A DNA stretch of 64,000 bases from Pseudonocardia benzenivorans CB1190 (GTDB lineage Bacteria > Actinomycetota > Actinomycetes > Mycobacteriales > Pseudonocardiaceae), in the NCBI RefSeq assembly GCF_000196675.2, contig NC_015312.1, positions 3,782,001-3,846,000 on the forward strand. Reading direction: 5' to 3'. Shown in pieces: positions 38,267 to 41,041 of this stretch (position 1 is its first letter; each line of letters starts with the position of its first letter). The notes under the pieces were generated by a model that was given only the letters and a program-made list of their open reading frames with translations, was not told where the DNA came from and ran no database searches. Both the position numbers and the translations under genes were made by a program.

Positions 38267-40954
38267 TCACAACAGGCTGAGCTGGTCGCCCGCCGCACCG
38301 CTGCGGTCGTCCCTGCCGGCAGACGGGCGTGCCGCCGCCGCCACCTCCGGGTCCCGGTCGGACGTCGGCCGTGTCCCCGGGTCGGCGCGACCCGCGGCGC
38401 CCAGGTCGACGTCGGCGGCACGGCCGCGGAAGCGCATCGCCGTCACCGAGCCGTCGAGCCCGTGCCGGCGCAGCAGCGGTGCGACGCGTTCGGCCAGCGC
38501 GGTGCGGTAGGCGCCGTCGACGTATGCCCCGCGGCGGTACAGCCGCCCGTACGCGTCGACGAGCCCGGGATGCTCGCGCTGCAGCCACGCGAGGAACCAT
38601 TCCCTGGTCCCGGGGCGCAGGTGCAGCGCCATCACGCTCGCGCCCGTCGCGCCCGCCGCCGCGATACGTCCGAGCAGCGCGTCGAGCGCCTCCGCCGAGT
38701 CGGTGAGCAGCGGCAGCACGGGCGCGACCATCACCCCGCAGGGCAGACCGGCGTCCGTGATCCGCCGCACCAGGTCGAGCCGGGCCCGCGGACTCGGCGC
38801 CCCCGGTTCGAGACGGGCCTGCAGCGACCGGTCGAGCAGCGCGATCGACACCCCGAGCCCGACCGGGACGTCCTGGGCTGCGGACGCGATCAACGGCAGG
38901 TCGCGGCCGAGGACGGTCCCCTTGGTGAGCACGGAGAAGGGCGTTCCCGATCCGGCGAGCGCCCGCACGATGCCCGGCATCAACCGGTAACGCCCCTCGG
39001 CCCGCTGGTACGGGTCGGTGTTGGTGCCCATCGCCACGGGCTCACGGCGCCACCGCGGCCGATTCACCTCGCGTTCGAGCACTCGTGCAGCGTTGACCTT
39101 GACGATGATCTGGCTGTCGAAGTCGGCGCCCGCATCGAGGTCGAGATAGGTGTGGGTGTTGCGCGCGAAGCAGTTGTGGCTGATCACGCCTTCGGCGACG
39201 AAGTCACCGGTCCCCGTCGTGATGTCGAACATCGGCCGCGACTCCGGGAGCGGTTCCACGGCCACGACCTCGGGCCCGGCCGCCGCGACGACCGACCCGC
39301 CGGGCTCGCGGATCCCGGTGGCCGACGGGTCGACACAGCCGGCGAGCCGGGTGAGCGTGCGCGCATCCGCCGGCAGGACCGCCGTGTGCAGCGCCTCCCC
39401 GGCGCCCGGGCCCGGAGCATGCCGGACGAACCGCAACCCGAGCTCCCGGCCCGCGGCGACGAACCGGTCGAGCAGGTCGCCACCGGCGGGGCCGACGGCC
39501 CGCACCTCCAGCGCCGCGCCGGAGCGGGACCCGAGCGCATCGAGCACGCCCGCGACGAAGCCGGCCTTCCACTCCCGACCGGGCCGCAGCGGCCACCCGG
39601 CCGGACCCACGGCCGCGGCCGACCCGACCCGCACCCCGCCCCCCGCGGGCAGCGGCACCCGCCGGGCGGCCGTCGCGACCGGGGTCGCCGCGGCCACGGA
39701 AGCGACCGGCGCTCCGGGAGCTTCCGCCACTGCGAGGGATCCGGACGGTTGCACCGAGCCGACCGGCACTGCCCGCCCGGCTGAGCCCGTCGAGCCCGTC
39801 GAGCCCGTCGAGCCCGTCGAGCCGACGGGCCCTGCCGAGCCCGACGACGCTGTCGCGGCTGCCGGCAGCGAGGCTGCCCCGGCCCGCCGCGATGCACGCC
39901 CACCCGGCCGGGGCCGACGCGCCTCGGGGCGGGTGGTGCGGGTCGGCCCCGAGGCCGACGTCCACACCCCTGGCATCGCCACGGCACGGGCCCAGCCACC
40001 GCCGCGGGCGAGCGCCGCCGGGGAGCTCCCCGCAGCCGCTGACGCCGGGACCGTCGTCACCGGAACCGTCGCCCGTGCCGGGCCTCCGGCGGCACCGGGC
40101 TCGGCGCCACCGGCTCCGGGGCCCGCGGCGGCACCGGCCCCGCCCCCGGCGCCGACCGCGACACCGACCTCGGCCATGCGGCCGAGCACGCCCGCGTCGA
40201 GGTGGGCGACCAGATCGCGTGCGGCCGGACCGGCGGCGGCCCCGTCGGCGTCGGCGAGCATCCGGTGGACCCGCGCCAGTGCCTCCAGCGGGATCCGGCC
40301 GGACGGGAACGCCTCACCCGACGCGGCGGGATGCACCGCGTCGGCCCGGGTGATCCCACAGAGGTAGCCCACCCGGTACGCGGGCTCGGACGCCGGCGAG
40401 GGCGTCGGCGCACCGGGCCCGAGCAGGCGCGACCCCGGCCGCAGGTGCGGACGCCGGCCACTGCGGCACCACCCCGGCGACACGTGGCGCCATCCCTCAC
40501 TGGTGAGGAAGCGGTGCTCTCCGCTGGTGACGAGGTCCGTGCCGTCGCTGAGCACGACACGGCGGGCCGGGCGCACCGTCGACCAGTGCGCCAGTACCCG
40601 GGTGCGGACGTAGCGGCGGACACCGTCGGGACCCACCTCGGTGCCGACCACCGCATCGCGGACCGTCACGTCGGCGATGGGCCGCCATCGACCGTCGGCC
40701 AGCAGCACGCGCGCCGACCCGTCAAGGCAGTAGACGCACGCGTGCGAGCAGCCGCGGTACGGATTGACCGTCCAGGCGAACGGCATGCGCGAGGGCGCCG
40801 GCACCCGGTTGAGCACCGACTTCGCCTCGACCTCGTGGAAGACGGTGCCCGCGAACTCCGGCGTCCGGACGCTGCGCAGCAGCCCCCGGAGGCCCGGCAA
40901 CGCCGCGTCGCCGCCCACCCCGTCGTCCCGCACCTGCTGCCCGCTCCACCGCAC
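38267..40954 (-). CDS. Rv2578c-family radical SAM protein containing an intein
   Basis: An 895-residue precursor. The extein (about 376 residues after splicing) is a SplB-like radical SAM protein: [37 protein letters not shown] + [13 protein letters not shown], then [35 protein letters not shown] and [16 protein letters not shown]. The CxxxCxxC cluster is Cys69, Cys73 and, after splicing, Cys595. The intein runs from Cys76 to Asn594. GTG at 40954 (VRWSGQQV) is chosen since a perfect SOS box occupies the DNA just upstream, which an ATG at 40981 would place inside the gene. Function of the family is unknown but linked to DNA damage; it is the last gene before a divergent gluconokinase. Confidence 0.9.
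39173..40729 (-). mobile_element. Class 1-type intein with decayed homing endonuclease
   Basis: 519 codons inserted in frame. The N-terminal block A is [21 protein letters not shown]; block [14 protein letters not shown] has the conserved TxxH; the C-terminal block F is [24 protein letters not shown] followed by the +1 Cys. Cys1, block B His, penultimate His and terminal Asn are all present, so splicing should work. The middle has remnants of LAGLIDADG motifs ([12 protein letters not shown] about residues 195-206, [13 protein letters not shown] about 464-476), separated by roughly 190 residues of Ala/Gly/Pro/Ser-rich filler. The second motif has Leu in place of the catalytic acid, so homing activity is probably lost. 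Confidence 0.88.
39783..39818. repeat. Tandem 9-bp repeat in the intein
   Basis: GAGCCCGTC is repeated four times without interruption (39783-39818). On the minus strand it encodes [12 protein letters not shown] in the low-complexity filler between the two endonuclease remnants. A 9-bp unit keeps frame on expansion. Confidence 0.9.
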
Positions 40955-40962
40955 CCCGGGAT

Positions 40963-40978
40963 TCGAACACATGTTCGA
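40963..40978 (-). promoter_or_regulatory. Perfect actinobacterial SOS (LexA) box
   Basis: TCGAACACATGTTCGA matches the mycobacterial/Streptomyces LexA consensus TCGAAC-N4-GTTCGA at all 12 defined positions. It ends 8 bp before the GTG of the intein-containing radical SAM gene and 63 bp before the divergent gluconokinase start. I recall Rv2578c being in the M. tuberculosis LexA regulon, which supports a role here; repression of the radical SAM gene is the main expectation. Confidence 0.88.
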
Positions 40979-41041
40979 CACCCCTGCAAGCCGCTATCCC
41001 CACCCGTTGGCCGCCGTGCGCCGACCGCGCATCCTGGACCG

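Follow-up and report, generated by a model that had tools for sequence, protein, structure and literature searches.

Does an intein that begins with a cysteine at the very position of a cluster ligand act as a switch for its radical SAM host, or is it an ordinary intein at a site that ordinary rules would favour? The question is raised by a gene of strain CB1190 that lies within the window, the whole stretch of 64,000 nucleotides that was analysed. The first-pass annotation had placed the intein at 39173..40729 and had suggested that cluster occupancy or redox state could block or trigger splicing. The interval proved exact to the base, in agreement with the ORF translation, the family profile NF038136 and both junctions. 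The gene is organized as follows.

38267..40981, minus strand: gene of the Rv2578c-family radical SAM precursor, 904 aa including the intein
40730..40981, minus strand: N-extein, aa 1–84, with the last residues C78-S-H-A-C82-V-Y84
39173..40729, minus strand: intein, aa 85–603, 519 aa from Cys1 to Asn
40727..40729, minus strand: intein Cys1, occupying the third cluster cysteine position in the precursor
40415..40729, minus strand: N-terminal splicing (Hint) part with block B SGEHRF (SxxH); its boundary near intein residue 105 is approximate
39173..39277, minus strand: C-terminal splicing part with blocks F and G
39170..39172, minus strand: Cys+1 (aa 604), C-extein nucleophile and, once spliced, third [4Fe-4S] ligand
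38267..39172, minus strand: C-extein, aa 604–904, the rest of the radical SAM domain

The start codon is likely the ATG at 40972–40970, which matches the start of the relative P0001. The precursor scored 776 bits with NF038136, the profile of the intein-containing Rv2578c family radical SAM proteins (cutoff 700; profile positions 1–574 of 574), and 511 bits with NF038135, the Rv2578c equivalog without intein (cutoff 430). The radical SAM profile PF04055 was passed with 29.6 bits against 29.5, and splicing would yield the radical SAM motif as CSHACVY+C. With 98% identity, the closest database protein is from Pseudonocardia dioxanivorans and is already named as an intein-containing Rv2578c family radical SAM protein. 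The protein type is thus known, being a named and catalogued family in NCBIfam, and the idea of a novel insertion was dropped since NF038136 already names the family. A literature search outside subscription journals found no study of the Rv2578c intein; in the accessible part of PMC3655853 the intein host is ribonucleotide reductase, which is unrelated. Nearby in the window lie, among others, genes for an aspartate-tRNA ligase and for a gluconokinase of the GntK type.

The precursor reads NPYRGC78SHAC82VY|C85...SHN603|C604FARNTH, with the Cys1 codon at 40729–40727 (aa 85) and the Asn codon at 39175–39173 (aa 603). At the N-junction C-S-H-A-C-V-Y|C the place of the third cluster cysteine is taken by Cys1 of the intein, as had been proposed, so that the precursor retains a complete CxxxCxxC built with this residue. 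The proposed double role of a single residue also holds at sequence level, Cys604 being the predicted C-extein nucleophile and, after splicing, a cluster ligand. The sequence has the features of a class 1 intein, namely a nucleophile at position 1, block B (T/S)xxH, penultimate His, terminal Asn and Cys+1. Among the catalytic residues of the CB1190 copy are Cys1, the block B S-x-x-H, the block F Asp, His-Asn and Cys+1. Block B opens with Ser in place of the Thr of the textbook motif, as is usual in this intein family. General intein models stayed below their cutoffs, which are detection thresholds and not biochemical features (PF14890 15.2/35.8, TIGR01445 18.3/24.5, TIGR01443 12.1/15.6 bits). 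A chance HINT match was considered and rejected on account of the uninterrupted sites in relatives and the conserved intein ends. The search of solved structures by sequence gave seven weak matches, the strongest lying in the low-complexity stretch, and no match carried the name of a radical SAM enzyme or an intein.

Comparison with relatives confirms the conservation of these ends. All 119 database proteins that could be parsed without fixing this position have Cys1; a 120th, P0105, gave no parse. If 146 genomic loci are added to the 119 proteins, two partly overlapping sets, Cys1 and His-Asn are found in 265/265 relatives and the block F Asp in 264/265, the parse having demanded Cys1 for 66 and His-Asn for 80 of them. 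The length is far less constant. At 519 aa the CB1190 intein is the longest among the 146 loci measured, the maximum in the 119 database proteins being 516, and it is in this respect that it differs from the P. dioxanivorans/NF038136 type in the same host protein. Forms of only 137–190 aa are found at the same site in other relatives.

The splice points are confirmed by homology with genes that have no intein. All 42 intein-free sequences put through the parse, of which 12 belong to the genus and 30 to the rest of the phylum, read CxxxCxYC[FY]AR without interruption and with Tyr at −1, although the parse itself seeks such a motif. Within Pseudonocardia, 36 of 62 genomes pass the NF038136 cutoff, 12 carry an intein-free gene, 5 are without a proper match, and a further 9 show parts of the intein, where the frame is broken, at the edge of a contig or spread over different contigs, the two ends not both being confirmed. 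A search of 396 genomes across the phylum, made with the model that has no intein, gave 30 loci as its best-scoring ones, all of them intein-free; ranking by this score favours such genes. Another 30 loci with a long span, chosen by hand among the matches listed, which held further long-span rows, had an intein of 150–355 aa at the identical site in every case. When genome contigs were scanned with a mini-intein profile, at least 294 relatives were confirmed. The best 80 of these all have Cys-7, Cys-3, Cys1, Asn and Cys+1 at the same site, partly by construction, since most of these positions belong to junction motifs already written into the scan patterns and the parse. The taxa include Micromonospora, Plantactinospora, Jiangella, Amycolatopsis, Actinokineospora and Cellulosimicrobium; MAGs of Acidimicrobiia, Solirubrobacterales and Thermoleophilaceae were matched as well. 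The insertion, for which a survey of related genomes had been suggested, is accordingly common to many Pseudonocardia genomes and other actinobacteria at one and the same site.

Does the coincidence of nucleophile and ligand call for a special explanation? At +1 an intein requires one of the residues Cys, Ser and Thr. Across the 108 exteins that were aligned, no cysteine other than the three cluster ligands is invariant; the parse of these exteins demanded the three, and a separate alignment of 48 proteins yields the same C78, C82 and C604. A Cys+1 intein at a conserved site is therefore expected at CxxxCxxC. Three Ser/Thr columns of the exteins reach a conservation of 95% or more, hence alternative +1 positions existed for an intein that uses Ser or Thr. 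In local conservation (15-residue windows) the insertion site ranks fifth among the 36 Cys, Ser and Thr of the CB1190 exteins. The accessible part of PMC5050341 likewise describes that inteins often adjoin conserved motifs and sit after invariant residues. The shared identity is real at sequence level, yet not surprising, and ordinary intein rules explain the placement.

The middle of the CB1190 intein carries the remains of a homing endonuclease.

40337..40369, minus strand: altered LAGLIDADG motif 1 (GYLCGMIRGDG in intact relatives); RADA, with Asp kept and both flanking Gly changed to Ala
39530..39562, minus strand: decayed LAGLIDADG motif 2 (GFLAGIFDAEG in intact relatives); DALG, with Leu at the catalytic acid position
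39783..39847, minus strand: tandem array with a 9-bp unit that codes for (GST)n, within the expanded low-complexity spacer

With the acid of motif 2 and the glycines of motif 1 lost, the endonuclease must be regarded as decayed; an active LAGLIDADG enzyme has catalytic acids in both motifs, and this is not the case here. The low-complexity spacer spans roughly 39574–40255. Compared with the 98% identical relative P0001, its (GST)n array has 3 additional aa, from which it follows that intein length varies between near relatives. Asp or Glu at both catalytic acid positions occurs in 2/36 Pseudonocardia inteins versus 18/30 from elsewhere, mini-inteins being scored as without acids. By a strict pattern the motifs are intact in 2/37 Pseudonocardia loci and in 27/109 loci outside the genus. 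Mini-inteins of up to 200 aa make up 59/109 of the latter, a share that is inflated by the mini-intein query. The locus sets include at least two genomes twice (L108/L156 and L045/L120).

The substitution rates are in accordance with this decay. In 12/12 pairs with overlapping species, dN/dS was lower in the N-terminal splicing part (0.04–0.38) than in the middle region (0.23–0.47). The exteins gave 0.06–0.19 (N-extein) and 0.05–0.22 (C-extein) in 12 pairs, and the values of the C-terminal splicing part, with its 35 codons, scattered between 0.04 and 0.81. This pattern indicates that the splicing function is being kept and the endonuclease is not.

Within the genus, Hint and extein distances are well correlated (Mantel r 0.74, 0/2000 permutations as high), and the splicing domain is more diverged than the extein (0.310 vs 0.178). 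Outside the genus the correlation is weak (Mantel r 0.19, 50/2000 permutations), and in the 30 loci L040–L069 divergence is lower in the splicing domain than in the host protein (0.389 vs 0.487). The weak correlation together with the less diverged Hint domain fits homing between actinobacterial hosts, to which unequal constraint may add. A quick tree of 54 exteins, 48 of them from the genus, requires at least 6 changes of the intein label, 4 of which are forced by well-supported branches, compared to a mean of 14.5 for shuffled labels; the outgroup does not fall on one side of this tree and some branches are long.

We conclude, with a probability of about 0.8, that the element is an ordinary class 1 cis-splicing intein in a Rv2578c-family radical SAM protein, with homing origin, a decayed endonuclease and a retained splicing domain. 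What the sequences show directly is the insertion site with its residues, the protein family, the decay of the endonuclease and the pattern of selection. The intein probably arrived by means of a LAGLIDADG homing endonuclease that targeted the conserved DNA coding for CxxxCxxCFAR. The endonuclease of this Pseudonocardia lineage has decayed, and its region has drifted to become a long low-complexity linker. Splicing would still take place and cluster assembly would follow it; the splicing domain is presumably kept because, before extein ligation, the enzyme is missing the genuine third ligand of its cluster. To account for the arrangement, dedicated regulation is not needed.

Whether the CB1190 copy itself still splices deserves separate consideration. 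The first-pass annotation had stated that all splicing residues are present. This is correct for the catalytic residues; at two near-invariant positions of block A, CB1190 deviates.

40712..40714, minus strand: intein residue 6, Ala (Thr in 260/265)
40658..40660, minus strand: intein residue 24, Arg (Gly in 263/265)

In the partly overlapping sets of relatives Ala6 occurs in 5/265 and Arg24 in 1/265, and the 98% identical P. dioxanivorans protein has Thr6 and Gly24. For the N-terminal splicing part, dN/dS of CB1190 against two sister species amounts to 0.38 and 0.23, each of which exceeds at least 9/10 other pairs. T6A and G24R may thus affect splicing, and with the raised dN/dS of this part, splicing in CB1190 is not assured. 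In principle, the two changes could weaken folding or the first splicing step to such an extent that the enzyme is poorly made or not made at all. Such a failing intein is unlikely in our view. Residues 6 and 24 are non-catalytic, the other four Ala6 inteins are all Jiangella loci, and the reading frame and exteins of CB1190 are intact and constrained.

Gating of the splicing reaction by cluster or redox state, the idea put forward initially, appears improbable. According to this model, Cys1 would ligate a [4Fe-4S] cluster with Cys-7 and Cys-3, or would form a disulfide with Cys-3 under oxidation. Either state would block the N–S acyl shift and hold back the oxygen-labile enzyme until conditions suit. 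The residues needed are all in place, as Cys-7, Cys-3, Cys1 and Cys+1 occur together in 119/119 parsed database proteins and in the 80/80 scanned loci (in the 66 other loci they were required by the parse), and a cluster bound by the first three in the precursor is conceivable. But these cysteines are needed anyway by the enzyme and for splicing, so that their conservation tests nothing. Moreover, the gene is intein-free in 12/62 Pseudonocardia genomes and in the 30 loci that headed the search of 396 genomes, with its ranking in favour of such genes. Presence and absence within one genus argue against an essential regulatory role. The active-site cysteine of a Hint fold may also be unable to reach a cubane.

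Precedents for such a control have been described. MoaA is a radical SAM enzyme, and its intein in Pyrococcus abyssi is reportedly the subject of Callahan 2011. In the accessible parts of PMC10663303 and PMC3922620, a disulfide between Cys-3 and Cys1 under oxidizing conditions is given as the redox block of MoaA splicing. From the Cys-3/Cys1 spacing stated there, we deduce that the insertion point of this intein is the third Cys of CxxxCxxC. The CB1190 intein shares this feature of the MoaA-type redox switch, a Cys-3 beside Cys1. The MoaA intein differs in being archaeal and in having a host of another radical SAM family; a cluster-bound precursor is not among the features described in these excerpts. 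For the DnaBi1 intein of M. smegmatis, an oxidative stress sensor, the excerpt of PMC6195587 describes a reversible block of splicing by oxidation of the catalytic Cys; in contrast to the CB1190 intein it is of class 3, with a disulfide inside the intein and a helicase as host. According to the same excerpt, not all inteins are subject to redox inhibition through Cys, which speaks against the gating model. The M. tuberculosis SufB intein likewise combines Cys1 and Cys+1 in an iron–sulfur related host, which differs, according to the part of PMC8891592 that was available, in being a cluster-assembly protein and in having no radical SAM motif.

The further-reaching proposal that a [4Fe-4S] cluster bound in the precursor, or a Cys-3/Cys1 disulfide, acts through Cys1 as a phylum-wide post-translational iron or redox gate derived from a decayed selfish element, with iron supply or oxygen determining how fast the radical SAM enzyme is released, is more doubtful still. 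That the central segment is a lineage-specific domain insertion which stays in the mature enzyme is hardly credible, for although general intein models stay below threshold and the segment is largely of low complexity, the strict conservation of Cys1, His-Asn and the block F Asp given above (partly imposed by the parse), the uninterrupted sites of relatives and the short forms at the same site all speak against it.

Although the protein type is catalogued, a single position in a cluster motif offers intein-free forms, mini-inteins and forms with intact and decayed endonucleases, and thus a large natural panel for deciding if an intein at a metal-binding cysteine serves as a switch or is merely a tolerated parasite. 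If gating were true, a selfish element would have been turned into a cofactor sensor in many actinobacteria. If it were false, the reading of active-site placement as a sign of the intein as a regulator would lose a tempting example.

A phage or plasmid route of the intein was sought and not seen. Viral contigs scanned with part of the C-extein and with the mini-intein profile contained no relative; for the mini-intein L108, the plasmid collection held no match and the phage collection a single distant one, located in a terminase and 29% identical. A MAG labelled Armatimonadota (L188) has the same intein and junctions, by transfer between phyla or by contamination. Four Pseudonocardia assemblies (L076–L079) have the intein gene in two frames with breaks at different places; split inteins were considered here, but the differing positions, taken from the match ends, fit sequencing error or decay better. 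Finally, in the fragmented assembly G053 the N-extein and the intein (L111) are followed by unrelated sequence right after the C-junction Cys, and the C-extein (L112) lies on a separate contig, preceded by unrelated sequence, a picture that suggests an interrupted C-junction or an artefact of binning.
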